Shown: piece by piece, positions 19,261 to 39,938 of the stretch
How positions within the stretch are numbered: the stretch's first letter is position 1
How the letters are laid out: the number at the start of each line of letters is the position of its first letter
NCBI GenBank assembly: GCA_021731625.1
Contig: JAKFXC010000101.1
Span: forward strand, 1-39,938
Direction: 5' to 3'
Origin: Candidatus Omnitrophota bacterium
GTDB lineage: Bacteria; Omnitrophota; Gorgyraeia; Zapsychrales; Fredricksoniimonadaceae
DNA length: 39,938 nucleotides
Program-made: the position numbers and the translations under genes
The notes under the pieces: generated by a model
The model's input: the letters and a program-made list of their open reading frames with translations, nothing else
Database searches by the model: none
What the model was told of the DNA's origin: nothing

Positions 19261-19299
19261 ATTAAAATCAGGTAAAGAAGCTGTTAAGTTTGTGTTATT
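19261..19299 (-). promoter_or_regulatory. Pho-type promoter of phoB (autoregulation)
   Basis: Minus-strand units AATAACA (19299-19293), CTTAACA (19288-19282) and CTTTACC (19277-19271) recur every 11 bp, followed by TTTAAT (19266-19261) as a -10 candidate. The arrangement is the same as at the porin promoter, and the first spacer (CAAA) is identical. The first unit overlaps the stop codon of the giant gene. Positive autoregulation by PhoB is the natural reading. Confidence 0.75.
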
Positions 19300-22200
19300 T
19301 CACAAAGAATTCAATGGGATTGAGCATGGGACGGTATTGCAGCAATTCAAACTCGAACCCGCGGAAGGACTGCAAATCGTAAACCACGTTGGGCTTAGAG
19401 GCTGGTAGGGCGTCTGATTGTTGAGAATCAATCCGGACCACATTTCGGGTAGCGGTAAGGTCCAAACCGCCGTCGGGACTTACCATGGCTTTTTCTCTTC
19501 TAACCATCCGCAGCTGCCGCGGCTGCTTGCCGTTAACAGGAATGGGGCTGACGGTAGGGATAGTGACGGGGCTGGCCACCTCATCCCCATTGCCAGATTT
19601 CGTGTAAATCTTCAATTTTGCCGCCTTAAAATGGGGCGCAAAGACATTAATGACCAATTCCTTGTTACCTTTGGGAATTCCTTTGGCGCGCGAGACAGCC
19701 TCGAACAAAGCTTCATAATAATTCCACAGCTGTGTCCTGTGCTGTGCCCTCAGTTCCCGGTTGTCACCATATATTTTTCTCAAATCCGGTAACCGGGCCC
19801 TCTTTCTCAAATATCTGTCCACATGGTCGTGCGTCGGCTGCGCAATCACGTTGAAGAAGTCTCTTCCCAGATGCACCGGAAGCTCCTTCGGAAGTATGGT
19901 TTCTACCGCGTCTGCCATCTCCTCCATAATGTCACTCACCCTTGCTCCCATGACCAGCCGTCCCGCGCTTAAGGGATACTGATCGATGCTTGGGTTGGTG
20001 GGATCAACGATTTTTTTCATCTCGGCCAGGATGTCATTATTTTCCTCCGCCTGCATTTCGTCCAGGTCCAACTTTTCGAACGTCCCGCGAAACTTGCCAT
20101 TCTTGCCCATACGAACGAACCCTTCATCCAGGTCTTTTTTCTTTCCTCGGACCGCAACGAGGCTGATATCCGCCTTTCCGCGCGGGGGAGGAATCGGGCC
20201 GCTATATTTGTTTTGAGCATACGTAATCACAAATTCCTTGCCCGGCTTTCGGGAAGCCAACCAATAGCCGTCCATAATGGCCCCGCCGATGGCTTCCACC
20301 ATATCTTCTTCAGCGATGCCCTGGGGGATCGGCACAAACAATACCCTGGCTTGAGGCCAGCGGGCACCCAATTGTGCCCGTGCAAACCTGACCCCCTCAA
20401 AAATACTGTTGGCACTTCCGGGCCTGGTCTTCTGAAAGAGCTCCACGCTTGCTTTTTTATGAAAATATTTTGCCGTGAATTTCGGGTCCTTGATGACCCT
20501 GGAAATCGCATCCATATCGTTGGCACTGGCCGGAATAAGGGCAATCAAATCGAATGTGGGCTTAGCTCGACGGCGCTCCGGCGCCAGCAATTTCTGGCTT
20601 TCCTGGGCCACCGTGGATTTAACTTCACCTAAGGCCGCATTGAATTGATTTTCCCAAGCTTTGAAACTGCTTTTCCACTCTTGGCGATATTCCATTTTCA
20701 ATAAATTCAAATTGCGGTCCCAATGAAACCATAAACTCAGCAGCAAGGCGATTAAACCGAGCACGGACAGTTTTGGAACACTGAGATTAATCAACGGGCC
20801 CCAGAGAAGAACACTGACTAAAGCGATGGGGACAGCGACCGCGCCCAAACGGGTCAAAAAACGGCCTCGCCGGTTGATGTCCGCCTGCCCCTCCGAAGAA
20901 GAAGGCACCAATGAGGTGACATTTTTGATGGCATTGGCCTGGCGTTTTTCATATTCAATCGTGAAACCTTCAGGGTCAGGATATAAGCCCGGAATAATGC
21001 GGTTGCCATTGGCTATAATCGCGTTGCGATCTGCCCGCATGGCTGCTACGGATTTTTTCCCCATATAATCGTATCCTTGAAGCCCACGAATAAAAGGATA
21101 AATACCAACCTTATATCCGCCCAACCTATAAAGACGTTCCAGAGGATGCCCGGCGCGATACATATGGTCAATCCACGTGTTGAGATTGCCGCGTTCGTCC
21201 AACCATCCGAGGTAATCCGTCACATACCCCATCATCTGCATAATGGTGTCTAACTCGTCCTTGAGATCCCGGCGCTGCGATTCATCCAATGTTTTGTGAC
21301 GCTCCACATATTCGGCCAAAAAAGGCAAAGTATGGCTTCCTAGAAAAACAAAAAACGCATAACCCTTTATGTAATCTCCATTATTAATTTCGGGAGAGCC
21401 GCGCGCGGGGCTATCCCCTCCATTTTTAGACACAAGCTCCGGTGTGAGCGGGGCCAGAATCATGATCGTCGACATGGAATTGATCATATTATTCACCGCT
21501 AAAATCACGTCCCTGGGTGCGGTTTCATGGCTCAAGGATTCCAACTCTTCCTTCCAGGCCAGCAGGTGGGTGTTAAAGTTGGCATTGGCAGGAATTTCCG
21601 GGCCACCTTCGCCGGGATCCACCATCACCATGGCCGGGTCACCCTTGTTCCTGCGCACCAGATTAGACCATTTAGGCAATTTGGAATGGCCATTCGTCTT
21701 CTTGGACTGATAGCCCTGACCGAAATGCGCCAGTCCGCGGTCGACACGCTGCCGCGGCGTGGCTTTTTTGCGCCAAAAGAATTCCCGTGTCCGTCCAAAT
21801 CCAAACAAAGTGATGAATATGGCCCCCACGGCGGCCGGGAAGATAAAATGCCCTAAAGGTTTATACGGCAACTCTTGATTGTTTTCCCTTATTTCTCGCT
21901 CAAAACGCGGTGCGTTCTTAATCACCTGCTCCACAATTTCTAAGCCCGGTTGGCCTCTTAATTGACCGAGGGTGTGTTTAAGATCGCGCGGGTTCGAGTT
22001 GCGGGTTTTCAGAGCAATTTGATCCAGGGCATTTTCCTCCACCTCTGTAAAAAAACGTTGATTGGAATGGGTCCAGAATCGGTGTTCCTTCTCACGGTCA
22101 TGTTTAACGTATCCCAGTGAAAAGGCGATGGCCTTTGCCTCGATATAGGCATCCACGGCTGATTTCCCGCGGGGGTCCTCGGCCAGCCGTATTTCGTCAT

Positions 22201-25200
22201 AGGTATCAAAGGTGTTCAAGCGAATGTCTAGAAACTGTTCATTCCCGCTGGCCTTATACATGTCCAGGGAAGCCTGCCGCACAATCAGGGTTTCCTGGGT
22301 GTTTTTACGCTCAAGTTTTTGCAAAATGTCGATCCAGCCGCTGCCCTCGATCGTCCCCTTGAGCTTAGGGTTAGTAATGTACTCCTGAAGGGCTTGAATG
22401 ATGCCCTCCCGGGTTTTCAAAAGCCAATCCAGCGCCTCCTCGGCGGAAGATGTTCCGGTGGCTAGAATTCGCCGCAGCTGTGCCACATTGTCTTTGGCTT
22501 CACTCACCGGGCGCGGCTGATCGTCCGGACCCAAAACTGCAAAACGACCCAGAGCCGGCTGGTCGGCTTCTTCGTCGGGCACCTCAAAGAGAAAGGCAAA
22601 CTGTTCAGCCCTGCTCCTATTCCGCTCCAAGACCGCGTTGGCCGCGGCCTCCGCCTGTCTAAAGACATCCGCGGACATGAGCTCAATATTGTTGGCAATC
22701 CCGGAAATTTCAATCCCCCTTTTTTCTTCAGGAAAAAGTTTGACGGCACGAAAGTCATTGCGCATATCGTTCCAAAAATACACGTCCGGGGACTCATACG
22801 CTTGGAATTTCTTAGCGGCATTCCTTTTGTATTCCCGGCGCTGGATTTCCTTATGAATACGCTCCGCCAGGTCCCGGGCATCCAGTTGGGGATTGTCCAT
22901 CTTAAGGCCCCAATATATTTGTGCCAAGGCATCGCTGTCCCAATAGGGCGACCGCAAAAGATATTCCGCTGTCAGCCGATCAGTCCTTTTCAAAAAACTC
23001 ACCCATACGCGGCGGGACAGGCGCCTTAGGTCCTGGCCGTCCGGGGTACCCTTCGGCGGAGGAAACGGAAACATGACATCTTCCGATATATTGAGATCCT
23101 TTGAATTGATGATCAAATCCCTGATGGCCTGAAACCCCCATTGCCCCCGGAGCGAGCCGGACAATCGCGGGCTGTCGATGGTGGGCAGAGGTTGACTAAA
23201 GGCGCGGTGGATCATCTGGATGAACAACGGAATGTTGTTGTCGTTGCGATTGGCCAAATGGGCCCATAGCTGCTGGATGACTTCGGGATAGTCGCTGGAC
23301 AATAAAATTTCCTCAACTGCCTGCAAAAACTGCGGATCATTCCTCTGGCGCTTAAACAGCCGCTGCAAAGTCTCATCCCGCACCAGCTCGTTAGGTTCGC
23401 TGATCAGGATGCGCGCCACTTCCGCAATAGGTCCTGCCAATTTTTCTTTAGTAACATTATTTGGTCCACTGGGCGCTGATCCCGCCGGTCCTTTGTCATT
23501 CGTCCCACTCATCAACAGCCAGAGTCTTACCGCTGCGCGGTTGGGGTCCGGTGCGCCCGCCGCTTGAAAAGTGACGGCGCCCGCCGGAAAAAAGGGACCT
23601 CCTCCTGCGGATGGGGTACTCGGCCTCACCACAATATCATCCACCCCTTTGGGCATGGCTAACTGCATTCCCCCCGAGCTGCGGGTAACTGGCGGCGCTG
23701 AGGACACCCGCACCGCCCCAACGTCTTTGGCTTTGACCAATGACTCATCCAGCACCTGCAATTCGCGCAATTTGGCTTCTTGCTCGAAGTAATCTTTCTT
23801 CCTTTCAATGATTTGACGGCCCATGGCTTCAATGCGCGCACGTTCCTCCACCAAATCCGGCATGGAGTAGATGTCGGGCTGGGCGGCCTTCCCTTCCCAG
23901 TGCACAACCGCCCCTTCATGAAGTTTTTCCATTCTGGAAATTTCCTGGCTGGCCATATTAAGAAGACTCACAGCTATACGAAGGTTTTGAGCTTCATTGT
24001 GTTTGGCACTGCTGACTCTTAAGCGGGCGGCCTGGTCTTCCAAACGCATAATTGTTTCCAAGGGTCGCTTGGTGGAATCATAAAGCAAAAGCTCAAAACC
24101 TGCCCCTCCGGTAAAATGGCCTTGGGCAGCCGTTGTCCGTAAGTCCGCCCCCCGGGTCAAATCCCTGATAGGGTTAAATGTTTTATCGTCGGAGATAAGC
24201 AGCGACGTGAAATTCACCGCCGGAAGCAAGCCATCCTTTTGCATTTGTATGGCCACATCCATTGACCGCTTCTCCGCTTCCGCCTGTTTGATGTGGTAGC
24301 TTTCGGAAAGCAATGTGCGCAGCATCCGCTGCTCCTGTTCCGCCGAAATTGATACAAAATTCCCGTCCCAGACTATGTCCGGGGTAAATGACGAGCCGAG
24401 TGGCTCAAGCCGCAGGTGGTTAAGGGCATCGGTCAATCGCTTCATGTCATCAAAGCAACGGGCAATGCGGGTATCAACGTCCTCAATTTTCTTGGCCAAA
24501 GCACGGACCTCTATCACCGTGGCCTCTCCGACCTCAGCCCGCTTGTCTAAGACCTTTTTTGCCTTTTCTAAGTCTTCTTTGAGCGACTGCAGCGAAGCCG
24601 CGCGTTCTTGAGCCGCACCCACAGCAGTCCATAAATTGTCGGCGGCGTTAATATTTCCCATAAGCGTTGTCTTAAGACCCCACCGGGAGGCCTCAACACC
24701 CGTGTCAGCCAATTTTTTAAGTTTTCCCGGTTTATCGGTCAGAAGGTCGGTGATTTGGGTCCAGACTGCGGAGATCAACTGGTCCGCCACAGCCCCGTAC
24801 GCATTCCCCATGGCAATAGAACCCCCTATAATATTTCGGAATACGCCGCCTAATCCACCTGAGAACAACACCTTTCCAGCTCTCAGAAAAATATTGGCCT
24901 GAAGGCTTATTTTGGTGGGATTGACCATTTCTGCTTCCGCCTCGCGCATCTGAACCGCGATGGTGGCTGGGTGACTCAAATATTGATTGCCGATGATCTG
25001 GGATCTTAGATCCGCCAAACTCAGGGACGGACCAACGGGCTTGTGCGGTCTCGACGGAGAGAAGCGCACGGGTTGTAGAGGGAAAGAAATTCTTGCTGGT
25101 GGCCGCGTTTGATACTTAAGCGGCAGCGGCCGAGCCCTGGCTGCCTGAGCCCGTCGCTGCTCTTCCGCTCTGTGGTTCTCGCCGTCTTGCAGCACGCTGG

Positions 25201-28200
25201 CAATGCGGGCCGCCTCTTCCTTCGTCAGCACCCGCACCTGCACTGGTTGACCTTCACCAAGGGCAAAACCAGTGTCTTCCACCATGACTTCGAACGTCTC
25301 TTGCGGCCGCAGGAAGCGTAAAAATCCGCTGCCGGCCATCCGATTAATCGATGTTATGCGGCCAGGCATCACGTTTCCCCTTTTCGTAACCACCGCCACC
25401 GGAGATCCTTCTTGCAGCGCCGATTGTCCTGATAAAGTTGGGCCGGTTTCGATGCTCTCGGTGCTGCCCACGACAGCTTTTCTGGTTTGCAGTTCCAAAA
25501 TAACGGTCCCCTTAGGATTATTGACACCGGCCCGGCGGGTGACGATGCCGTCTTCAGAGGCAATGATCTGCAAATTCGAGATCCGAGTTGCCAAGGTTGA
25601 CAAGTTGCCAGCAAGCATGTCCATTTGCTCGCGGAGCCGGTCCTTGTCCCGATTAAGAACATAGGGTATGCCGTCCAATTCACCAGACATCTGATCCATT
25701 TGCTCCTGCAGCACATTGTACGCCAGCACGCGCTGCTGATATTCCTGAAATAAAAGTTCGACCATGGTTGATTCGGCCAACAATTGCCCGGCCTGGACCC
25801 GGTCGCCCAAATCGACGTGATATTTCATATTGCTGTCTTCGGGGTTAAAAAATTTTACCCGTTGGACGGCTTTTACCGATGACAGTATGGAATGGGTACC
25901 CCTCATCCCAGCCAGCTGGACATGACGGTTTTCCGAGGGATGAAGTCTGGCATACACCGGCACCCGACGCTCGGTGGGAACCGGACGCGGAGATACCAGC
26001 TTAAAAGTGACTAACACTTCGGTATCGGAGGCTTGCTCTTTCCATTCCACGCCCGCTATCTTGACTTTTTCTCCATTGAGGGTAAATTCACCGATCTTTT
26101 CAAAACTGGTCATTCCGGTCGGCGCCCGCACTGTTAAATTAACCACCTGCAAATTGTCCAACTCCAAAATTTCGGTCTTCTCATCCACATGTTGCCCATC
26201 CCTCACCAAAGTTTTATGAACCCTGCCAGCATGGGGCGTTCTGACGGTGCGGACCTCTTGACTTTGTTCAAGCTCATCCGCCTCGCGTTTTACGGTGATC
26301 GCTCTATTGCGGGCTGCCAAAACTTCCGCCGCCGTTGCTGCCCCTGACTTATGCAACTTTTCCTTACGCTTAAGGTCTTCCGTGGCCAATTTTAGGGTGA
26401 CTTTTTTATCCTCTATTTTTCCGCTAATGCTCAGACTGTCCACCTGGGCAACCTTGGCATTTTTCGGATAGACCCTGACGTCCGGATCAAAACCGCGCAT
26501 AATCCCCGCCGCCCCGGCAAAAAGCTTTTCCCTCACCGGCACCACGCTCGCATTTCCTGAAATAGTAAATACACCCCGCGCATCGATCTGAACCCGCGCG
26601 GTTGCATCCGTCGAGGTATGTGGCACGGCAGGCCTTGCAGGGTTTTTTGCCGCTTCCCCTTCACTTTTTACGCTGCCACCGTGACCTCCACCTGAACCGG
26701 GGAGCACATCGCTCTTCTCAGGCGCTTTCGCTGCCAATTTTCTCATTTGACCCGCCGCAGACTTGTCCACTCCGTCTTTGCTTGAGACTTTTTCTGGACC
26801 CCCGCCCGCAGCCTTGATCGCCGGACCATTGGCCTCGCCTGCCTTTGTTGATGAGAAAGCGTCCATCGCCTTGCGGTTATTGACAGCGGCGCCTGTCTGC
26901 GGCCCTATAACACCATCGATGCGCACTCCCAGTATTCCCTGCGCGGTTTCAGTCACAAGTCGCCGCGACTTTCGCAATTGCGAAGACTCAAAAATTTTGT
27001 CCCAATTGGCTCGGAGATACGCAGCTTGCCGGGAATTGAGCTTCTTGGCCTTAACCACATCTTCAACTTTGACAATGTCCTTCATCTTTCGAAAGACATC
27101 ATTTTTTTCCTTGGCTGACATACGGATCTTGCTCGCTCTACTTACTTGCTCTTTCTGGATCTTAATCTGGACCATCTGAGGACCGATGTTTTCTACGACC
27201 GCGGCCCGCGGAGGAGCAGTTATTTTATCGGCTGGTATTGCCAGCGGGGTTAGAGGCGCCACAAAAATAGTGGCGGCGAGTGCGGCGGCAAATAATTTTT
27301 GCCGGCTAATGCCCTTGGGAAGCAGTGCCAGATCCACGCTGTAGAGACGTTTCCCCAGGTTATTGACCAGCATGGCAAATTCAGAAGGAGACGCGGGAAC
27401 GGGTAAAAATTTAGCCCACCCTCTGGCGTTAAAAACCACGCCGCCGGAGAAGTATTTTCGGGGTACCAGGCCGCCGCTCTGGTCACGGTCTTCCCGGATA
27501 TAATTGTAGACTCCTTTCTTGAAGGCCTCAAGATACTGACCATAGATCTTTTCCTTAAAATTTTTCTCGTCAACGGCAATGCCGAAGGTTTTCTTCTGGT
27601 CCGCAAAAACTTTGTTCACCAAATGCTCTTTGAGACGCCGTTTAAACCAGATCGCCAGGATCAGCGAATGGAACATCTGGCGCAAAGGGGCAAACTCCCT
27701 CCCTTCATTGACTTCCCGCTCGAGCTCCGGAAGAATGATCTCTTTGAGCAGAGTGGATTCCAGCGCGTTATTCGCGGTTGGCGCCTGACCACGCATTTTT
27801 TGGGCCAGATAATCCTTCTCCAACATAACCTTTAAGCGACTCTCGGCAATAAAAGCTGACCCGTCGCGTTCATAGACCACAGCTTTTTCGGGGACGATCC
27901 AGACTTTGCTGATCATATCCATCGGCGCATATCCCCTGTATTTCTCCCCTGCCTTGGCCAACATTTTCTTCCAAAATGTTCTGCCAGGCTCCCGCTCAGG
28001 ATACGTCATGGAAGCGGCCATTTGTTTAAGCATATAATCCAGAATGAGCATGTCCCGTCCGACGATCGTTGACTCGAGGTTTTGATTTAGGATGCGATTG
28101 GCCTCGTAAGGCGAAAGGTTGACCCAAAGGTCTTCTTCTGGAATAGCCAGAAAGGTCAGGAAGTATTTGGCCAGGCGTTCAATCTGCTCCTGATCAAGAT

Positions 28201-28468
28201 GGGGATCATCGGCGGCATTGACCAGAAATTTAAACTTACATGGGTCCAGAGGGTCGACGGATATGGCTTTAAGCTCAGGGGCGACAAAACGGGGGGAAGC
28301 TTCCAATAACCGGCCGGGCGGTGGCATCAGGGCATTGGGAGCGGAGGCATCCTGGGCGTAAGCCGTGTGGATGTTGAGGATGTCCACGCCGACCGTATTG
28401 CCGCCAAAGGCCAGCAATACCGACCAACAAATCACCCGAAACCAAGCAGGACAAATCTTTTGAGGCAT
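19295..28468 (-). CDS. Giant multidomain exported protein (3057 aa) with efflux adaptor- and TolC-like regions
   Basis: The ATG at 28468 follows AAGGA. Residues 10-38 form a signal peptide or anchor (ending AYAQD). Residues 75-350 form a helical block, including KVWIVPEKAVVYERDG and LVPRKYFSGGVVF, that I associate with Omnitrophota giant proteins. A hydrophobic span lies at 391-412. Residues 475-535 resemble a peptidoglycan-binding domain (GILGVRIDGVIGPQTGAAV). Residues 540-620 are a Gly/Ala/Lys-rich linker. Residues 620-1085 carry two membrane-fusion-protein (HlyD/RND adaptor) units, with coiled coils at 690-735 and 900-965 and barrel-sandwich halves such as RTPHAGRVHKTLVRDGQHV and VDLGDRVQAGQLLAES. 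Residues 1150-1590 have the long paired helices and LxxA/S pattern of TolC-type outer-membrane factors. Residues 1680-2200 are alpha-solenoid-like. Membrane spans lie near 2205-2223, 2537-2562 and 2566-2584. Residues 2640-2960 form an unrecognised alpha/beta region. Adaptor and TolC calls are pattern-based inference; exported giant status is well supported. Confidence 0.8.
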   Translation of the reverse strand: MPQKICPAWFRVICWSVLLAFGGNTVGVDILNIHTAYAQDASAPNALMPPPGRLLEASPRFVAPELKAISVDPLDPCKFKFLVNAADDPHLDQEQIERLAKYFLTFLAIPEEDLWVNLSPYEANRILNQNLESTIVGRDMLILDYMLKQMAASMTYPEREPGRTFWKKMLAKAGEKYRGYAPMDMISKVWIVPEKAVVYERDGSAFIAESRLKVMLEKDYLAQKMRGQAPTANNALESTLLKEIILPELEREVNEGREFAPLRQMFHSLILAIWFKRRLKEHLVNKVFADQKKTFGIAVDEKNFKEKIYGQYLEAFKKGVYNYIREDRDQSGGLVPRKYFSGGVVFNARGWAKFLPVPASPSEFAMLVNNLGKRLYSVDLALLPKGISRQKLFAAALAATIFVAPLTPLAIPADKITAPPRAAVVENIGPQMVQIKIQKEQVSRASKIRMSAKEKNDVFRKMKDIVKVEDVVKAKKLNSRQAAYLRANWDKIFESSQLRKSRRLVTETAQGILGVRIDGVIGPQTGAAVNNRKAMDAFSSTKAGEANGPAIKAAGGGPEKVSSKDGVDKSAAGQMRKLAAKAPEKSDVLPGSGGGHGGSVKSEGEAAKNPARPAVPHTSTDATARVQIDARGVFTISGNASVVPVREKLFAGAAGIMRGFDPDVRVYPKNAKVAQVDSLSISGKIEDKKVTLKLATEDLKRKEKLHKSGAATAAEVLAARNRAITVKREADELEQSQEVRTVRTPHAGRVHKTLVRDGQHVDEKTEILELDNLQVVNLTVRAPTGMTSFEKIGEFTLNGEKVKIAGVEWKEQASDTEVLVTFKLVSPRPVPTERRVPVYARLHPSENRHVQLAGMRGTHSILSSVKAVQRVKFFNPEDSNMKYHVDLGDRVQAGQLLAESTMVELLFQEYQQRVLAYNVLQEQMDQMSGELDGIPYVLNRDKDRLREQMDMLAGNLSTLATRISNLQIIASEDGIVTRRAGVNNPKGTVILELQTRKAVVGSTESIETGPTLSGQSALQEGSPVAVVTKRGNVMPGRITSINRMAGSGFLRFLRPQETFEVMVEDTGFALGEGQPVQVRVLTKEEAARIASVLQDGENHRAEEQRRAQAARARPLPLKYQTRPPARISFPLQPVRFSPSRPHKPVGPSLSLADLRSQIIGNQYLSHPATIAVQMREAEAEMVNPTKISLQANIFLRAGKVLFSGGLGGVFRNIIGGSIAMGNAYGAVADQLISAVWTQITDLLTDKPGKLKKLADTGVEASRWGLKTTLMGNINAADNLWTAVGAAQERAASLQSLKEDLEKAKKVLDKRAEVGEATVIEVRALAKKIEDVDTRIARCFDDMKRLTDALNHLRLEPLGSSFTPDIVWDGNFVSISAEQEQRMLRTLLSESYHIKQAEAEKRSMDVAIQMQKDGLLPAVNFTSLLISDDKTFNPIRDLTRGADLRTTAAQGHFTGGAGFELLLYDSTKRPLETIMRLEDQAARLRVSSAKHNEAQNLRIAVSLLNMASQEISRMEKLHEGAVVHWEGKAAQPDIYSMPDLVEERARIEAMGRQIIERKKDYFEQEAKLRELQVLDESLVKAKDVGAVRVSSAPPVTRSSGGMQLAMPKGVDDIVVRPSTPSAGGGPFFPAGAVTFQAAGAPDPNRAAVRLWLLMSGTNDKGPAGSAPSGPNNVTKEKLAGPIAEVARILISEPNELVRDETLQRLFKRQRNDPQFLQAVEEILLSSDYPEVIQQLWAHLANRNDNNIPLFIQMIHRAFSQPLPTIDSPRLSGSLRGQWGFQAIRDLIINSKDLNISEDVMFPFPPPKGTPDGQDLRRLSRRVWVSFLKRTDRLTAEYLLRSPYWDSDALAQIYWGLKMDNPQLDARDLAERIHKEIQRREYKRNAAKKFQAYESPDVYFWNDMRNDFRAVKLFPEEKRGIEISGIANNIELMSADVFRQAEAAANAVLERNRSRAEQFAFLFEVPDEEADQPALGRFAVLGPDDQPRPVSEAKDNVAQLRRILATGTSSAEEALDWLLKTREGIIQALQEYITNPKLKGTIEGSGWIDILQKLERKNTQETLIVRQASLDMYKASGNEQFLDIRLNTFDTYDEIRLAEDPRGKSAVDAYIEAKAIAFSLGYVKHDREKEHRFWTHSNQRFFTEVEENALDQIALKTRNSNPRDLKHTLGQLRGQPGLEIVEQVIKNAPRFEREIRENNQELPYKPLGHFIFPAAVGAIFITLFGFGRTREFFWRKKATPRQRVDRGLAHFGQGYQSKKTNGHSKLPKWSNLVRRNKGDPAMVMVDPGEGGPEIPANANFNTHLLAWKEELESLSHETAPRDVILAVNNMINSMSTIMILAPLTPELVSKNGGDSPARGSPEINNGDYIKGYAFFVFLGSHTLPFLAEYVERHKTLDESQRRDLKDELDTIMQMMGYVTDYLGWLDERGNLNTWIDHMYRAGHPLERLYRLGGYKVGIYPFIRGLQGYDYMGKKSVAAMRADRNAIIANGNRIIPGLYPDPEGFTIEYEKRQANAIKNVTSLVPSSSEGQADINRRGRFLTRLGAVAVPIALVSVLLWGPLINLSVPKLSVLGLIALLLSLWFHWDRNLNLLKMEYRQEWKSSFKAWENQFNAALGEVKSTVAQESQKLLAPERRRAKPTFDLIALIPASANDMDAISRVIKDPKFTAKYFHKKASVELFQKTRPGSANSIFEGVRFARAQLGARWPQARVLFVPIPQGIAEEDMVEAIGGAIMDGYWLASRKPGKEFVITYAQNKYSGPIPPPRGKADISLVAVRGKKKDLDEGFVRMGKNGKFRGTFEKLDLDEMQAEENNDILAEMKKIVDPTNPSIDQYPLSAGRLVMGARVSDIMEEMADAVETILPKELPVHLGRDFFNVIAQPTHDHVDRYLRKRARLPDLRKIYGDNRELRAQHRTQLWNYYEALFEAVSRAKGIPKGNKELVINVFAPHFKAAKLKIYTKSGNGDEVASPVTIPTVSPIPVNGKQPRQLRMVRREKAMVSPDGGLDLTATRNVVRIDSQQSDALPASKPNVVYDLQSFRGFEFELLQYRPMLNPIEFFVK

Positions 28469-33560: not shown

Positions 33561-34595
33561 TTAAAGAAGCTTTTTAGCAAAATCTTCTGGGGAATTCATA
33601 TTGCTTAATGAGAAAAGATATTCTTCTGGAACATCGATTGAGGCGGCAGAAACTTCTTTTAATAAATCTTTCATGGCCAGTCGTCTTCGAGCAATATGAT
33701 CTTGCACATAAGGAAGAAGTGTTGCAGGATACCTTCCTAGAAGAGGCTCTCGGTATCCCTTATTACTGAGGACGACGGGTGATTTGATTTCAGATTTAAC
33801 CAAAAAAGAAAATATTTCCGGTATCACTTTCGAAAGATCACATGGAGAAATCAAATATTCTGAATCTAACCCAGAACTTAATAAAGCCTCTAAAGCTCCC
33901 ATTGGCCCTAAGCCTTGATAATTATCTTGAATGCGCTTTAAATGTCGCAGAGAATCTGGCACCCCCTCCCCATGCCCCACCAAAACAACCTCTTTGCATA
34001 ATTGCTTAAGAACATGGTGAACATGTTCAATTAAAGTACTCCCGCGTGGAAGAATAATGGATGCCTTTGGTTTTCCCATTCGACTACTTCGTCCACCGCA
34101 GAAGATTGCACCGGTATGGGGCCATAAAAAATTAGACATTTTTTCCGGTGAAGGTTTTATCACAATGGTCTCGCCGTTATTTAAAATTCCTTCCTTTAGC
34201 ACCCGCGCATACATCCCGTGACCGTCTGTCGCGTCTTCTTTTAATTTGGGATGGATTTGATCCATGACATAACAGGTGGGCCGGGTACGGGTAATTTCGA
34301 GGACAACGCCTCCGGCAAACTCAAGAACCGTCCCTTCGGGCAAGGCATTGACATTCAATTCTTGTACCGTAAGGTTTTCTCCGGTTGTGCCTGGTTTTAA
34401 AGGATAGCCTTTTGCACAGAGCTCGTGGAGCCGTTCAACATCTTGAATACAAACGGCCTGTGTTAGTCGATAATGTTTTTCATGATTATGTTCATCACCT
34501 ACTAAACCTTTTTCAATAATATTGACAGAATCTATTGGAAACTTTGGAACCCCGCCTTTAGAAATATTAATGGATACCACGTGCGGCTTTTTCAT
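33561..34595 (-). CDS. MOSC domain fused to MobA-like molybdopterin guanylyltransferase
   Basis: This 344-residue fusion starts at ATG 34595 (an in-frame TTG two codons upstream is possible). Residues 1-155 form a MOSC domain with KGLVGDEHNHEKHYR, GTTGENLTV and the cysteine motif ITRTRPTCYVMDQI; MOSC domains carry or insert sulfur or molybdenum. Residues 155-344 form a MobA nucleotidyltransferase with GAIFCGGRSSRMGKPKASI (the GTP-binding loop), GLGPMGALEALL and the LISPCDLSKV metal site. MobA joins GMP to molybdopterin to make the bis-MGD cofactor used by nitrate reductases. It is the last gene of the nitrate cluster and probably matures the molybdoenzyme whose end is at 39474. The nucleotide-binding loop matches well. 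Confidence 0.88.
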   Translation of the reverse strand: MKKPHVVSINISKGGVPKFPIDSVNIIEKGLVGDEHNHEKHYRLTQAVCIQDVERLHELCAKGYPLKPGTTGENLTVQELNVNALPEGTVLEFAGGVVLEITRTRPTCYVMDQIHPKLKEDATDGHGMYARVLKEGILNNGETIVIKPSPEKMSNFLWPHTGAIFCGGRSSRMGKPKASIILPRGSTLIEHVHHVLKQLCKEVVLVGHGEGVPDSLRHLKRIQDNYQGLGPMGALEALLSSGLDSEYLISPCDLSKVIPEIFSFLVKSEIKSPVVLSNKGYREPLLGRYPATLLPYVQDHIARRRLAMKDLLKEVSAASIDVPEEYLFSLSNMNSPEDFAKKLL

Positions 34596-34610
34596 ATCCA
34601 ACGTTGGAGA

Positions 34611-36206
34611 TTAACACTGAATCCCAGAATTTTTCCGATCGTAATAATACCAATTCAAAAAGAGACAGATCACGTAATAGACTGTAAACCCATAAAGCGC
34701 ATACTCGGGGTGGCCTGCTTTAATCTGCTGACCAAACACAATGGGAATTATAAATGCGCCGTATGCCGCAATCGCCGATGTCCAGCCCAGTACAGGCCCA
34801 GCTTGTTCTTTGGGAAAAATATATGGGATACTGCGGAATGTTGATCCGTTTCCAATACCAGCCGCAAAAAATAAAAACATAAAGAGGCCAAAAAACGGCC
34901 ACCAAAATACGTCTGGGGCTGCAGAGGCTTTAGCTTTTACAACAAAAAATGCAACTCCTAAGCAAGCAGCCACCTGCAGGACCGTGCTCCATGCAGTGAC
35001 TTTAGATCCGCTTCCTATCTTATCAGCAAACCATCCTCCTACTGGACGGATCAATGCTCCGACTAATGGCCCCAAAAAGGCCCATACCATAGGATTAGGT
35101 GCGTTTGGATTCACGGAACCATCCGGCATGTAACCAAAAACATCTTGGATCAATTTTGGAAATGAGGCTGAATAACCGATAAATGACCCGAATGTCATGA
35201 CATACAAGACGGTCATGATCCACGTGTGCTTATTATTGAAAATCGCGAACTGACGCTGTAAATTACCTTGAATTTGCTTTGGCGAGAAAAATTTAATAAT
35301 GATTAACGTCAATGTGATGGTTACCGGTAAGACAATCCACATATTAAGCTTTAAACCTGTGAGCATATACGCTCCGGTCCCAGCGGCAATTAGACCAAAA
35401 AGAATCAATAATATAATCTTCCTAAATTCACCGAATGTATCACCCAATTGCGGGGTCGCTGTTTTTAAATTATTCATACCGAAATAGGCCGCCATAGCCG
35501 ACAAAAATAATAAAGGAGCTCCTATGCACCCAGCATTTTGAATAAACACTAAAGAACCGACAGCTTTACCTCCATCCGCCTCAACCAGCTCCAATCCAGG
35601 CCCCGCTGGACTACCGAAATAAGCGCCTGTAATTAAAATTGGGATCATAAATTGCACCGCGCTGACCCCCAGGTTTCCTAAACCCGCATTTAAACCCAAC
35701 GCCGTACCCTGCATTCTCTTAGGGAAAAAGAATGAAATATTTGACATAAACGACGCAAAATTGCCGCCCCCAAGACCAGAAAGAACAGCGAGCAGCGCAA
35801 ATATATAATAAGGCGTGTTACTGTTTTGAAGCGCAAATCCTGCACCTACCGCAGGTATCATAAGCAGCATGGTCGAAATAAAAACAACATTTCTGCCGCC
35901 TCCGATGGCAATTAAGAAGGAATGTGGGATACGCAGTGTTGCGCCTGATAAACCGGCAATAGCCGGCAAAGTCCAAAGTAATTCATTAATGACTTTGAGA
36001 TCTTGAGCTGTCTCATGGGGCATACCCAGCGTAAAACCAAGCTTCTTCATCTGGACAATGATGATGCCCCACATGATCCAGACGGCAAAAGATTGAAACA
36101 ACGCTGAGATGGAAATCCAAAGATTACGTGTAGCAACCTTTTTCCCTTCCGTTTCCCAAAACGTCTGATTTTCAACATCCCAATCTTCAATATTGATCCT
36201 TGACAT
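34611..36206 (-). CDS. narK: NarK-family nitrate/nitrite transporter (531 aa)
   Basis: This Major Facilitator transporter has 12 spans and a soluble N-terminal extension (1-30). The nitrate signature NAGLGNLGVSAVQFMIP in helix 5 identifies the NarK/NasA group. GAMPHETA-type loop sequences and GNGSTFRSIPYIFPKE near helix 10-11 also fit. Some NarK proteins import nitrate with protons and others exchange nitrate for nitrite; the two in this window probably divide these jobs, but sequence alone does not show which does which. AGGGGGGAT precedes the ATG. It follows the heavy-metal-binding peptide by 26 bp and precedes the MOSC-MobA gene by about 15 bp. Confidence 0.9.
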   Translation of the reverse strand: MSRINIEDWDVENQTFWETEGKKVATRNLWISISALFQSFAVWIMWGIIIVQMKKLGFTLGMPHETAQDLKVINELLWTLPAIAGLSGATLRIPHSFLIAIGGGRNVVFISTMLLMIPAVGAGFALQNSNTPYYIFALLAVLSGLGGGNFASFMSNISFFFPKRMQGTALGLNAGLGNLGVSAVQFMIPILITGAYFGSPAGPGLELVEADGGKAVGSLVFIQNAGCIGAPLLFLSAMAAYFGMNNLKTATPQLGDTFGEFRKIILLILFGLIAAGTGAYMLTGLKLNMWIVLPVTITLTLIIIKFFSPKQIQGNLQRQFAIFNNKHTWIMTVLYVMTFGSFIGYSASFPKLIQDVFGYMPDGSVNPNAPNPMVWAFLGPLVGALIRPVGGWFADKIGSGSKVTAWSTVLQVAACLGVAFFVVKAKASAAPDVFWWPFFGLFMFLFFAAGIGNGSTFRSIPYIFPKEQAGPVLGWTSAIAAYGAFIIPIVFGQQIKAGHPEYALYGFTVYYVICLFLNWYYYDRKNSGIQC

Positions 36207-36232
36207 AATCCCCCCTCATGCTTCCACAAACT

Positions 36233-36487
36233 CTATTGCTTTTTCATACCGCAGCAACCACATGTATGCCCTTTGTCCGTAGCCTTAGGATCGTTCTTGA
36301 CCAAGGCCATGCCACACATAGAACAATTTCCTGGCTTATGACTTGTTATTTGAGCATGCATCGGACAGCCATACTCTTTATGCTTTGCCTGAGCAGACCT
36401 TTGACGCTTTCCCATAGACCATGCTGTACTCGTGCCGAATAAAATAGAAACAGACAATGTGGTTATCACCAAATGCTTAATGTTCAC
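36233..36487 (-). CDS. Small exported heavy-metal-binding-domain protein
   Basis: This 84-residue protein starts at GTG 36487, supported by AAGGAG. A signal peptide (about 1-24) is followed by a basic stretch. The domain YGCPMHAQITSHKPGNCSMCGMAL (39-62) is the YxCPMHPxI-x-PGxCPxCGMxL heavy-metal-binding domain seen in copper and other metal efflux proteins. A Cys/His tail (HTCGCCGMKK) adds more ligands. Here it stands alone, probably in the periplasm, between the two nitrate transporters. A role in metal buffering or delivery is possible. The ribosome binding site lies inside the end of the upstream narK. Confidence 0.78.
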   Translation of the reverse strand: MNIKHLVITTLSVSILFGTSTAWSMGKRQRSAQAKHKEYGCPMHAQITSHKPGNCSMCGMALVKNDPKATDKGHTCGCCGMKKQ

Positions 36488-36488
36488 A

Positions 36489-37991
36489 CTATTTTCTCCT
36501 TATAGATTCCTCAATGAACTGTGCCGATTCGGGATGTTTTGAACTCATCATTCGGACAATCACCGTATGCATCCACCAATAACAAATCAAAGACAAAACA
36601 AACATGAGCATCCAGCAGCTTGTCCATAATCCTGTATTTTTAAGTAAATATCCAAAGATGATGGGACAAAAAAAACCTCCCAATCCTCCCAGAACTCCGA
36701 CCATCCCTCCGACAACGCCGACCTCATTTGGAAAATAATCCGGAATATGTTTATAAACAGCCGCCTTCCCGATCCCCCAAACGATCCCCAAAACAAAGAC
36801 CAAGACTACAAAAATCCAGATGTTCGCCTGAAAATAAATACGTGTAATCCCCTTGGCTAGAAGTTCCCTTCTTTGTACTTTTTGGCCAACTTCTACAACT
36901 GATTCCTGCCAGACTTCTTTGGCAGGGAAAACTAGAAGCTTGTCGTCAAAGTCCTCTTTATGAATTTGTTTTTCAATCAGCGGATATGTTTTATCTCCAA
37001 CCACAACGAATTGAGGGCTAACTTCAGTCACAATCCCTGGTCCGACAGCCATGACTCCTTGACCCGGAGAATAGACATCCATTTTGGGGATACACAGCAT
37101 AAAGGAGATCATGCACGATGCACCCAGAACCCAATACATGACTTTTCGGGCGCCCCATTTATCAGATACCCATCCGCCAAGAGCGCGGATGACTCCGGAA
37201 GGAAAACTAAAACACGACGCTAAGATACCGGCGGTGACAAGCGGCAAATAATAAGCGCTGACAAAATACGGCACCAGCCACTGGGAAAAGCCCACAAAGC
37301 ATCCAAACACCAAAAAATAATACAGGCCAAACCGCCAAACTCGAATATTCTTAAGAGGGGCCAGCATGTCCACCCAATGCTTGTCGCTCGATGCCGGCTT
37401 CTTATTGATAGAAAAAAGAAACAACACAATGCCCATGAGAAAAAGGATTGCCGCATAATACTTTGGCAGCATCCTCCAGCCTTCGAGATTTGTCCCATTT
37501 TGAGTAAGAATATTTAGAAGTTTCGGAGCGAACAGTGTGGTCAAAGCCGCTCCGGCGTTTCCGGCTCCAAAAATTCCAAGCGCGGTTCCTTGGTTCTTTT
37601 TTGGATACCAGACAGACGAAAAAGCAATGCCAATGGAAAAACTCACCCCCACCAATCCAAACCCAAAACTGCAAAGAGCGAATTCTAAAAAGTTGTTCGC
37701 ATAAGATAATAAATACATCGGAATCGCACAGAGCAAAAGAAGCGTTCCAAAGACGGGCTTTCCTCCAAACTTATCCGTCAGCATTCCGGCCGGCAACCGA
37801 AAAATCGAACCCGTCAAGATCGGAATGCCCAACAGCCAGCCTATCTCAACCGGTCCCCAATTAAAGACTTGATTCGTCGACAGAAAAGTTACAAGCACTC
37901 CGTTAATCATCCATACTGCAAAACAAATCGTAAAAGCGAGAGTATTTAGAAAAAGAACTCTGTGAGATTGAGCCGTCGCCTGCTCTTGCAT
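36489..37991 (-). CDS. narK: NarK-family nitrate/nitrite transporter with extra soluble insert (500 aa)
   Basis: This 500-residue MFS transporter has the nitrate signature FGAGNAGAALTTLFAP (141-156) and the second one, GMVGVLGGLGGFFCP (near 429-443). Between the helices that end near residue 300 and restart near 389 there is an 85-residue polar insert (303-388). It includes VVVGDKTYPLIEK and VEVGQKVQRRELLAKG, which resemble beta strands of a lipoyl-like or barrel-sandwich domain. A typical NarK has only a short loop here. The insert is in frame and flanked by normal helices, so it is not an error. It starts 44 bp after the small membrane protein gene. Confidence 0.9.
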   Translation of the reverse strand: MQEQATAQSHRVLFLNTLAFTICFAVWMINGVLVTFLSTNQVFNWGPVEIGWLLGIPILTGSIFRLPAGMLTDKFGGKPVFGTLLLLCAIPMYLLSYANNFLEFALCSFGFGLVGVSFSIGIAFSSVWYPKKNQGTALGIFGAGNAGAALTTLFAPKLLNILTQNGTNLEGWRMLPKYYAAILFLMGIVLFLFSINKKPASSDKHWVDMLAPLKNIRVWRFGLYYFLVFGCFVGFSQWLVPYFVSAYYLPLVTAGILASCFSFPSGVIRALGGWVSDKWGARKVMYWVLGASCMISFMLCIPKMDVYSPGQGVMAVGPGIVTEVSPQFVVVGDKTYPLIEKQIHKEDFDDKLLVFPAKEVWQESVVEVGQKVQRRELLAKGITRIYFQANIWIFVVLVFVLGIVWGIGKAAVYKHIPDYFPNEVGVVGGMVGVLGGLGGFFCPIIFGYLLKNTGLWTSCWMLMFVLSLICYWWMHTVIVRMMSSKHPESAQFIEESIRRK

Positions 37992-38035
37992 TGTTACTTT
38001 TCTCCCTTAAACATTACCTAAACCAACGTCCTATC

Positions 38036-38308
38036 TTAGTCATTCTTCTTCTGATAAGTCTTACTTCGTCCTTCCGTCATGCCTTTTAGAAAATCCAAAT
38101 TCGTCAGAAAAATGCTGACGCCGCACGCCATAAAAGCCAACCCGCTTAAAATCACACTCGGCAGCAGATTCGCATATTTACCTTTGAAATAAGCTTCTAT
38201 ACCAGAGAGTAAAACCCAAATCTGCAAGAATATCGCGCCGAGACTGATGATCAAGGCCATCGTTTCCATCGTTTGGGCGAAATATTCTTTCTTATTTGAA
38301 AATCTCAT
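38036..38308 (-). CDS. Small two-helix membrane protein next to the Rieske gene
   Basis: This 90-residue protein has two membrane helices (about 16-36 and 50-69) joined by a short Lys/Tyr loop, with charged ends. It resembles the small membrane proteins (DUF6755-like, a hesitant match) found with Rieske and molybdoenzyme genes. Its ATG overlaps the Rieske stop codon by four bases (ATGA), so the two are coupled. It may anchor the electron-transfer subunits or help take electrons from quinol, but no heme or quinone ligands (His pairs) are seen in the helices. Confidence 0.6.
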   Translation of the reverse strand: MRFSNKKEYFAQTMETMALIISLGAIFLQIWVLLSGIEAYFKGKYANLLPSVILSGLAFMACGVSIFLTNLDFLKGMTEGRSKTYQKKND

Positions 38309-38847
38309 GCCAGCTCTCCTCGTTCCATTCCTGTAACATAAACCCCATCGGATAAAACCTCAATCTTAAGTTTAGGCAGTGCACGTTCCGGCGGACCATA
38401 CAAGACATCACCGGTGGTACCGTTAAACGCTCCTTTGTGGCACGGACAAAAAAGAATCTTTTCGTCTTTCTTCCAGATAACCGGGCATTGCAGATGTGTG
38501 CATTTCTGGCCGAAGGCGACAAATTCATCCTGATTTAGCCTTACGAGAATAGCCGGCTCTTTATATCCTGGCACTTCAAAAACATAGGATTCCCCGACAT
38601 TTAAATCTTCCTTATCAATAATCTTCATCGGCTTAAACGACCGCGATGTTATTTTAAACAGGCTGCTGAGCCAAACACCTGCCGTTCCCGCAAAAAAACC
38701 AAAAGAAACTAGTCCTAAATAACGGACAAAATCCCGTCGAGAAACGTTTGAATCTTGTTTCTGGTCAATGGGGAAATCTTCTGCCCATTTCGGCGTCTGT
38801 TTATATTTGTCTTTCAGTCTTTTTTCGATAGGGTTTTCTTGTGACAT
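38305..38847 (-). CDS. Rieske [2Fe-2S] protein with Tat signal
   Basis: The ATG at 38847 is preceded by AAAAAGGA, giving 180 residues. SRRDFVRYLG (36-45) followed by a hydrophobic helix is a twin-arginine signal anchor. The Rieske cluster ligands are C116 and H118 (CTHLQC) and C134 and H137 (CPCHKGAF), with the supporting Cys121 and Cys136 that form the usual disulfide. It would sit on the outer face of the membrane and pass electrons. A cytochrome b is not adjacent, so this is not a normal bc1 or b6f unit. Its neighbours make it a probable electron carrier of the nitrate-reducing enzyme. Confidence 0.9.
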   Translation of the reverse strand: MSQENPIEKRLKDKYKQTPKWAEDFPIDQKQDSNVSRRDFVRYLGLVSFGFFAGTAGVWLSSLFKITSRSFKPMKIIDKEDLNVGESYVFEVPGYKEPAILVRLNQDEFVAFGQKCTHLQCPVIWKKDEKILFCPCHKGAFNGTTGDVLYGPPERALPKLKIEVLSDGVYVTGMERGELA

Positions 38848-38858
38848 GGCATTCCTTT

Positions 38859-39467
38859 TTACACAATCCACGGTGGTGAATCTTCAATATTGGTGCTAAT
38901 AAAACTCAAAATGTCCATATTGATGGGATCTTCCGTATCCATCATGATATGAACCTTCGTCGTGATTGTCTGTTTTCCGAAAACAAACTGATTGTTCGCT
39001 TTATTTTTGCGCTGAGCTTCAATGACAGATTTGGGGCCAAAAAAAATGGCTTCCGACGGGCAAACGGTTGCGCACATCGGTTTCAATCCTACGGACGTCC
39101 GATCGTAACACATATCGCATTTAATCATCTGGGCCCGTGCCTTAAAAACTTTGGGGACACCGAAAGCGCAGGCGATTTGACAATTAGAACAACCGATACA
39201 GCGCGGCTTTAAGGATGATTGGACGACCCCATCATCCGTGCGCTTAATGGCATCGGCAGGACACACCGCCGCGCAAGCTGGATCATCGCAATGCATGCAC
39301 AGCGTTGGGCCGGTCTTGACGGATTCTGCCCGGTCTAACGGCTCTAAATGAATCATCGGCACGCCGCGATGCGTACCGCATTCCGCACATGCAGCCTCAC
39401 AGGCACGGCAACCAATACAACGCTGCGGATCAATAAATAAATCGTTTTCCTCTAGCCACGTGCTCAT
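38859..39467 (-). CDS. Four-cluster [4Fe-4S] ferredoxin subunit (NrfC/DmsB type)
   Basis: This 202-residue protein has four Cys groups typical of iron-sulfur subunits of molybdoenzymes: [35 protein letters not shown], and CDMC with CATVC. Each provides ligands so that four [4Fe-4S] clusters are made by the usual swap between groups. It passes electrons to the molybdopterin subunit encoded immediately upstream. There is no Tat signal or membrane span, so it lies on the cytoplasmic side or rides with its partner. The C-terminal part (about 145-202) after the last Cys motif is an unrecognised extension. GGAG precedes the ATG by 9 bases. Confidence 0.9.
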
Positions 39468-39473
39468 AAAAGT

Positions 39474-39938
39474 TTACTCCTGGTTAACTTTTTCAATCCG
39501 TACCGCGCTCATTTTAAATTCTGGAATCTTCGATATAGGATCAAGGGCCCGCTGCGTCAATCGGTTGATCGAGCGTTTACCTCCCCAATGATAAGGAACA
39601 AAAATCGTATCAGGCCTGATTGTCTTAACAACCCTTGCCTTTAATTCCATTGAATCCCGTCGGGATATAATCTTCACCCAATCTCCTTCTTTGATACTGT
39701 ATTTATCCGCAAGGAGTGGATGGATTTCAACATACGGCTCAGGGCACTGGTCTGCCAAAAATCCAATGCGCCTCGTCTGCGTTCCGGAGAGAAAATGATA
39801 AATCACCCGTCCGCTCGTCAGATAAATTGGGTACTCCTCGTTTATAAGATCTGCGGAGGGCCGATACTCAACCACATTAAAATGAGCTTTCCCATCCGGA
39901 TGATAAAATTTACCATTTTCAAATAAACGCGGTGTCCC
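39474..39938 (-). CDS. Molybdopterin oxidoreductase catalytic subunit, C-terminal part (probably nitrate reductase)
   Basis: This gene enters from the right edge; the last 154 residues are visible and the frame is open to 39938. The end of the molybdopterin oxidoreductase family is clear: TPRLFENGKFYHPDGKAHF, then YPIYLTSGRVIYHFLSGTQTRR, EPYVEIHPLLADKYSIKEGDWVKI (the molybdopterin dinucleotide-binding barrel) and DTIFVPYHWGGKR. These segments resemble assimilatory-type and periplasmic nitrate reductases and formate dehydrogenases. Nitrate is favoured because two NarK genes and MobA follow in the same run. The active-site Cys or Sec and the N-terminal cluster lie outside the window, so substrate remains inferred. 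Confidence 0.82.
   Translation of the reverse strand, partial: GTPRLFENGKFYHPDGKAHFNVVEYRPSADLINEEYPIYLTSGRVIYHFLSGTQTRRIGFLADQCPEPYVEIHPLLADKYSIKEGDWVKIISRRDSMELKARVVKTIRPDTIFVPYHWGGKRSINRLTQRALDPISKIPEFKMSAVRIEKVNQE

Follow-up and report, generated by a model that had tools for sequence, protein, structure and literature searches.

The window analysed here, 39,938 nucleotides long, is the entire contig C15 (GenBank JAKFXC010000101.1) of a Candidatus Omnitrophota metagenome-assembled genome (MAG), a 2.28-Mb assembly of 101 contigs that is 94.9% complete, and its right end carries a putative nitrate reductase gene cluster, hereafter the module. Open reading frame (ORF) calls together with Pfam and NCBIfam support gave eight co-directional genes on the minus strand at positions 33561-39938, in the same order as in a preliminary description of this DNA. 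Neighbouring genes overlap by as much as 4 bases or lie up to 44 bases apart. The contig terminates within the first of these genes, which encodes a molybdoenzyme. Promoter and terminator scans gave results no better than shuffle level.

The molybdoenzyme gene (39474..39938) is represented by the C-terminal 154 amino acids of a catalytic subunit of the NasC clade (PF01568, E 1.6e-30; best model NF047855, NasC), its 5' part lying past the contig end. This fragment was 88% identical to residues 575-726 of the enzyme encoded at locus L005 of the Omnitrophota MAG nzgw314 (genome G245), the closest named relative, in which the set is complete. The next gene (38859..39467; PF13247, E 6.8e-19) encodes a 202-residue ferredoxin subunit without a signal peptide, in which four [4Fe-4S] clusters are predicted; 16 of its 17 cysteines fall in the four-cluster spacing. 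A Rieske [2Fe-2S] protein follows (38305..38847; PF00355, E 6.8e-12), with the twin-arginine translocation (Tat) motif SRRDFVRYLG and the boxes CTHLQC and CPCHKGAF; its start was set at the ATG at 38847, and the frame stays open to a GTG at 38871. Downstream lie genes for a membrane protein with two hydrophobic helices that resembles DUF6755 (38036..38308; PF20540) and for NarK1, a nitrate/nitrite transporter-like protein of the major facilitator superfamily (MFS) (36489..37991; PF07690, E 2.6e-44; TIGR00886, E 4.1e-54, below the curated cut-off). An 84-residue heavy-metal-binding domain (HMBD) protein (36233..36487; PF19335, E 2.1e-13) precedes a second MFS transporter of the nitrate/nitrite type, NarK2 (34611..36206), which matched NF011608 (E 7.3e-88) and TIGR00886 (E 8.5e-81), both below the curated cut-offs. 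The last gene (33561..34601) encodes a MOSC domain (PF03473, E 1.8e-10) fused to a MobA-like nucleotidyltransferase (PF12804, E 7.2e-19), a combination pointing to molybdenum cofactor handling.

The preliminary description had stated that the cluster contains neither narI nor a cytochrome b. This was an artefact of the contig edge, because the window ends inside the enzyme gene. At the edge of another contig of the same genome, C54, bases 1-818 hold the 5' portion (273 codons) of a gene for a NarI/QmoC-type membrane protein, with 73% DNA identity to the membrane gene of L005, and the enzyme portion between C54 and C15 is unassembled; judging from L005, ~2 kb is missing between the two contigs. 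In the relatives G245 and G311, the membrane gene lies directly upstream of the enzyme gene; this upstream neighbour is narI-like, not a narGHJI-type set. The reported lack of narJ held for the whole 95%-complete MAG, in which PF02613 gave 0 matches. As for napC and nirBD, they are indeed missing from the window cluster; the relative G245 carries nrfH (NapC/NirT family) and nrfA within its cluster.

Subsequently, the distribution of the module was examined. The core order of NarI-like membrane protein, NasC-like molybdoenzyme, four-cluster ferredoxin, Tat-Rieske protein, DUF6755 protein and NarK was observed in five Omnitrophota genomes, namely the present one, G245 (locus L005), G311 (L006), G237 (L007) and G394, and it recurs outside the phylum, on four plasmids of Deinococcus (Deinococcota). 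The cluster is split over contig ends in the present genome, G311 and G237, and is contiguous at L069 and, but for one inserted gene, at L005; a short contig of G394 carries the membrane protein, enzyme, ferredoxin, Rieske protein, two-helix protein and NarK in order. The complete order at L005 is membrane protein, molybdoenzyme, CDP-alcohol phosphotransferase-like protein, ferredoxin, Rieske protein, two-helix protein, NarK1, NrfH, NrfA, NarK2 and MOSC. The CDP-alcohol phosphotransferase-like gene between enzyme and ferredoxin (L005:5999-7351, 450 amino acids) was seen in this relative only. The membrane gene was found in 4 genomes of a phylum sample of 384, G394 being outside that sample; a fifth match, in G238 (18.2 bits, two stops), was discarded as spurious. 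Among 72,556 plasmid records, four contained the membrane gene, all of them from Deinococcus, and all four have the same order with NarK next. The Deinococcus enzyme was 65-66% identical over 99%, and the ferredoxin was 57-58% identical between the phyla in an alignment of six copies. Five of the 81 genomes of the order encode the module-type Rieske protein, each at more than 200 bits. A Rieske match of any kind was obtained in 31 of the 81, those beyond the module five scoring at most 88.8 bits; the weaker matches inspected in G319, G130, G354 and G308 all lie, by eye, beside an apparent bc-type cytochrome b. A Bacteroidales Rieske match (L008) reached 28%.

One or two NarK genes are present in every cluster whose contig extends far enough. 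Between its membrane helices, NarK1 has a soluble insertion of ~70-80 residues (at residues ~308-375), which was also seen in the copies of L005, L006 and L007, and the Deinococcus NarK genes are ~50 residues shorter. The HMBD gene is accessory: it occurs only in the window copy and is absent at the same place in L005, L006 and L007. Its position between the NarK genes is the site at which G245 carries nrfHA. Judged by length and by eye, the MOSC-MobA fusion is shared with L006, and the MOSC part stands alone in L005 and L007.

The identity of the catalytic subunit was examined with the full-length enzymes of the relatives. The L005 enzyme (730 amino acids) scored 829 bits with the NasC model versus 602 with Fdh-alpha, the latter also below its own cut-off, and 54.6 with narG. 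The molybdenum-ligand motif LCMVSAG, of the Cys-Met type, was found in all six full-length module enzymes aligned; in the control rows, Nas and Nap sequences had Cys-Met, and the Fdh-type sequences had Cys/Sec-His in 4/4 cases. Neither a Tat motif nor a membrane helix was found in the full-length module enzymes. Two trees, one of 21 and one of 26 rows, both united the module enzymes with 100/100 support and put this clade next to the assimilatory NasC-type rows; NapA, AioA and the NasA of proteobacteria fell elsewhere. Finer placement is limited by the long branches of AioA and NapA and by a sampling that leaves out the NarB of cyanobacteria. The joint group of module and NasC-type rows had a support of 99/97 in one of the trees. 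The 154 residues of the window itself grouped with the Omnitrophota part of the clade in one tree, and were left out of the tree with the 99/97 support. A formate dehydrogenase and a NapA were considered as alternative identities, and both were ruled out by the motif, the model scores and the tree. The initial assignment as a nitrate reductase rather than a formate dehydrogenase is accordingly retained.

The ferredoxin subunit resembled E. coli NarH in the central clusters (hhalign, E 1.8e-13), and four cysteines are kept in all four of its clusters, whereas NarH has a tryptophan at one (CRGWRMC). The membrane protein of L005 has 353 residues and six hydrophobic helices; in a Deinococcus copy, five pass the threshold. 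The QmoC model matched all seven copies of the membrane protein (best 7.4e-12), as did TcuB; TmcC matched three of the seven, the NarI model TIGR00351 one (3.6e-5), HmcE one, and PF02665 four (best 1.2e-4). The top PDB sequences were E. coli NarI chains, though at an E of only 0.16, and hhalign of the membrane-protein alignment against E. coli NarI gave an E of 0.00062 with a probability of only 28. Three histidines, H113, H242 and H260 in L005 numbering, are invariant. The last two of these form a pair 18 residues apart, H-x11-PFGKFFH, which is present in all eight copies covering that stretch. In the alignments, the same spacing of 18 separates H187 and H205 of E. coli NarI, both of them heme ligands. 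With regard to NarI-family diheme b subunits, the models place the protein in the NarI/QmoC superfamily, three histidines are invariant, and the fourth ligand position is not a histidine. A C-terminal CxxC...CxxC motif was seen in G394 (L069:4881-5234) and in every one of the four Deinococcus copies, and is lost in G245 (L005:2687-3748) and G311. In public records, the Deinococcus membrane gene (L022:13889-15001 and its homologues on the three other plasmids) is annotated as an 'MFS transporter'; none of the seven membrane-protein copies gave an MFS match in Pfam at an E of 1.

The Tat motif S-R-R-x-F-x-R is kept in 9/9 Rieske copies, and the protein has both cluster boxes as well as the additional cysteine pair known from respiratory Rieske proteins. 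The second box reads CPCH(K/E/N)G(A/F/Y)F, with glycine and phenylalanine at the serine and tyrosine sites of bc1-type proteins. In the bc1 Rieske box, this serine and tyrosine raise the cluster potential; because they are replaced here, the cluster is predicted to be of low potential. The Rieske protein is predicted to reside on the periplasmic side, and we infer that it is attached to the membrane. PF20540 (DUF6755) matched 8/8 aligned copies of the neighbouring two-helix protein (best E 1.5e-11), the window copy only at an E of 0.0065, below the cut-off. When the DUF6755 family was used for a search at an E of 0.001, one of 384 genomes was matched, our own copy was missed and no control genome was matched; the family is too weak as a search marker.

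The preliminary description had proposed that the Rieske protein feeds the nitrate reductase directly. This is unlikely, given a Tat-Rieske protein predicted in the periplasm and an enzyme that is signal-less and accompanied by NarK. With the membrane predicted to lie between the two proteins, electrons could reach the enzyme only via the cytochrome b. Direct feeding would be restored in an Aio-like layout, in which the Tat signal of the Rieske protein exports the enzyme and the ferredoxin by hitchhiking. AioBA is a periplasmic enzyme exported as a pair; in Acidiphilium, a Tat-bearing AioB adjoins AioA, and the module Rieske copies do match AioB (TIGR02694, E 3.1e-8; structure 8r3a_B, E 1.5e-11). 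However, NarK, needless for a periplasmic enzyme, is encoded in every cluster reaching that far, the enzyme clusters with NasC and not with AioA (a long branch), and the PFGKFFH end of the NarI-type subunit would, from the topology of NarI, face the cytoplasm. We regard this layout as quite improbable. The predicted placement on opposite sides would also fit a Rieske protein outside the path of the enzyme: part of the electrons from quinol might go to the cytochrome b and the enzyme and part to an acceptor in the periplasm, or the Rieske protein might serve NrfH or c-type cytochromes, and nrfHA does stand alongside in G245. Such a branch seems rather unlikely to us, since inspection of the window cluster, of L069 and of the Deinococcus clusters revealed no gene for a c-type cytochrome, which argues against a general periplasmic partner.

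Taken together, these findings suggest, with good probability, that the genes specify a respiratory nitrate reductase that is membrane-bound and linked to quinol, with a cytoplasmic active site and a catalytic subunit of the NasC clade. The gene set, its recurrence in two phyla, the clade to which the enzyme belongs and the motifs are direct observations; from these we infer that the products form a single complex, how they lie in the membrane, that they react with quinol, which way the electrons flow and what the Rieske protein does. Menaquinol or ubiquinol would be oxidised at the membrane by the NarI/QmoC-family cytochrome b together with the membrane-attached, periplasm-facing Rieske protein. 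Electrons would cross the membrane via heme b and pass through the four [4Fe-4S] clusters of the ferredoxin and the N-terminal cluster of the enzyme to the molybdenum bis(pyranopterin guanine dinucleotide) cofactor (Mo-bisPGD), where nitrate would be reduced to nitrite. This reduction is placed in the cytoplasm because of the NarK genes and the signal-less enzyme; NarK1 and NarK2 would import nitrate and export nitrite, MOSC-MobA would serve the cofactor, and the DUF6755 protein would be a small membrane subunit. Most likely, the Rieske protein would carry electrons at the quinol site, and it may replace the distal heme of NarI there. The NarGHI reaction is charge-separating, and quinol oxidation at the outer face would make the present reaction charge-separating as well. 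In G245, the adjacent nrfHA would take nitrite on to ammonium outside the cytoplasm. A more specific version is put forward only tentatively, and we hold it to be possible but doubtful: a Nas-derived respiratory reductase, in which the NasC line has acquired a four-cluster subunit and a NarI-type anchor, with a periplasmic Rieske protein of the low-potential type replacing the distal NarI heme as the first quinol acceptor and leaving a one-heme anchor to take the electrons across the membrane.

Several observations weigh against the respiratory, membrane-bound enzyme proposed here. The NasC score of 829 bits lies below the curated cut-off of 1100. The individual NarI-type matches of the membrane protein are weak, and its AlphaFold single-sequence model, with a predicted local distance difference test (pLDDT) score of 47.8, was too poor for a fold search. 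The NarI heme-ligand position H66 has a histidine counterpart in none of the eight copies covering the site. The placement of the first histidine relative to NarI is ambiguous by three residues: the counterpart of H66 is the invariant Cys120 in the gap-free placement, and Gly/Ala if H113 is set on H56. Because H66 has no histidine counterpart, the transmembrane path differs somewhat from that of NarI, and one heme may perhaps be missing or held differently. The hydrophobic stretch after the Tat motif of the Rieske protein is weak on the Kyte-Doolittle scale. In addition, NrfA is absent from our own genome and no nitrite reductase was identified there, a NirK-like match of the multicopper type being far below the cut-off. 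Since neither NrfA nor NirK was found over the cut-off, nitrite may simply be exported in this organism. The genome also encodes a heme-copper oxidase, so nitrate is not the sole acceptor.

The enzyme might instead be an assimilatory nitrate reductase that merely draws on the quinol pool for nitrogen supply. The nearest clade is that of the assimilatory NasC, the Deinococcus hosts are grown aerobically, and no feature of the clusters is proof of respiration. On the other hand, no nirB, nirD or nirA was present in the four Deinococcus or the Omnitrophota clusters, whereas nirB lies near five of seven annotated nas-type loci compared (the two without it fall in another clade); the membrane cytochrome and, in one copy, nrfHA also speak for respiration. 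We therefore consider an assimilatory purpose improbable. The assignment to nitrate was made from sequence, and another oxyanion such as chlorate or selenate, or nitrite oxidation, could be envisaged in its place; the NarK genes, MOSC/MobA, NrfHA in a relative, an Rrf2-type regulator near our own copy and the placement in the NasC clade make this very improbable.

The preliminary description had noted that the segment is AT-rich and had taken this as a hint of transfer. Indeed, the G+C content (GC) of positions 33561-39938 is 0.440, compared with 0.490-0.539 elsewhere in the contig (272 overlapping windows of the same length). The G+C content at third codon positions (GC3) is 0.34-0.51 in the eight cluster genes versus 0.55-0.72 in 17 other ORFs of at least 200 amino acids, not all of which were vetted as genes. 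Between the present genome and G245, which belongs to another family, RpoB is 81.8%, the ferredoxin 94.1% and NarK2 92.1% identical; between the present genome and G394, of the same family, RpoB is 85.1%, the ferredoxin 75.5% and the Rieske protein 58.0% identical. Because the module is more similar across families than within the family, and because GC and GC3 set the segment apart, the comparison supports lateral movement of the module between Omnitrophota families and strengthens the earlier hint. The cluster is also a mosaic: our NarK2 is closest to that of G245 (92 versus 81% for G311), and our MOSC is closest to that of G311 (85 versus 58% for G245).

Several neighbouring genes were also noted. 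Upstream of the membrane gene, C54 carries an Alginate_exp porin (L015:881-2224) and an Rrf2 regulator; a porin of G311 looked similar to it by eye, and a second Alginate_exp porin of our own genome lies at window positions 9201-10643. The porin beside the nitrate cluster is possibly an outer-membrane route for nitrate. Near a Deinococcus module (L024:22388-24115), genes for a hemerythrin, a cupin and a group III truncated hemoglobin fit nitrogen-oxide stress. Elsewhere in the window, positions 19295-28468 of the minus strand form a single open frame of ~3057 codons.

The module was then compared with known systems. As in quinol-linked molybdoenzyme complexes (complex iron-sulfur molybdoenzymes, CISM), the genes for the catalytic, four-cluster and anchor subunits lie together, in an order conserved in two phyla. 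With NarGHI the module shares a cytoplasmic molybdoenzyme, a four-cluster subunit, a NarI-superfamily membrane subunit and NarK; it differs in its NasC-clade enzyme, in having three of the four NarI-type histidines, in the extra Rieske and DUF6755 proteins and in the lack of narJ. NasC, NasA and NarB are the closest catalytic subunits, likewise signal-less and with a Cys-Met site, but the module has four-cluster and membrane-anchor partners, and no nirBD/nirA and no NADH or ferredoxin partner was seen in its clusters. Unlike Nap, the enzyme has no Tat signal, and no nap partners are present in the clusters. AioBA similarly combines a Tat-Rieske protein with an adjoining molybdoenzyme of the same broad clade; it has no adjacent four-cluster subunit or cytochrome b, and AioA lacks an amino-acid molybdenum ligand, whereas the module enzyme has a cysteine. 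QmoC, HmcE, TmcC and TcuB provide the best-scoring models of the membrane protein but are subunits of other enzymes, and the scores are far below the curated cut-offs. The haloarchaeal pNar system (NarB Rieske, NarC cytochrome b, NarGH) also encodes a Rieske protein and a cytochrome b with its nitrate reductase, and its second Rieske box (CPCHFGKF) likewise has no serine and tyrosine; according to the accessible text of PMC2483277 and the Haloferax larsenii cluster, however, its cytochrome b is of the bc type and its NarG-type enzyme lies outside the cell. In the available part of PMC7931247, Streptomyces Nar1 is a Nar enzyme co-purifying with a Rieske-containing bcc-aa3 supercomplex, but the complexes are separate and the enzyme is of the NarG type. 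The arrangement is thus unlike nar, nap or nas, as originally noted.

Nitrate reduction that involves a Rieske protein is known from haloarchaea (PMC2483277 and PMC4683180, accessible portions) and has been suggested in Caldithrix (PMC5317091, likewise in part). For Omnitrophota, the accessible text of PMC10066038 mentions patchy nitrate reductases without detail. In the portion of PMC7331816 available, canonical four-cluster or anchor subunits accompany no member of the clade that joins Nas, Aio and Nap with one Fdh line, and NasA/NasC are exclusively assimilatory. PMC10100899, as far as its text was accessible, also treats NasC/NasA as assimilatory and places NasC/NasA-like sequences from anaerobes in basal branches; these branches may include the module type. 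The accessible parts of PMC12769810 and PMC5534035 do not describe the module, and no description was found in the open-licence literature, the subscription literature lying mostly outside the search. Because the published phylogeny gives the clade no four-cluster or anchor partners, we count the module, which is real and conserved, as a new variant in which an enzyme of the NasC clade and a Rieske protein are combined in a layout like that of NarGHI.

The conservation of a quinol-linked member of the NasC clade in phyla as distant as these two would suggest that nitrate respiration at the membrane arose a second time. If this reading is true, genome annotation would label some nitrate respirers as 'assimilatory'. 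DUF6755 would gain a context, and Deinococcus would offer a cultivable host genus for the module. Should the Rieske protein indeed replace the distal heme, the module would represent a second route of electrons from quinol to the cytoplasm and would contradict the view that Nas enzymes are only assimilatory.

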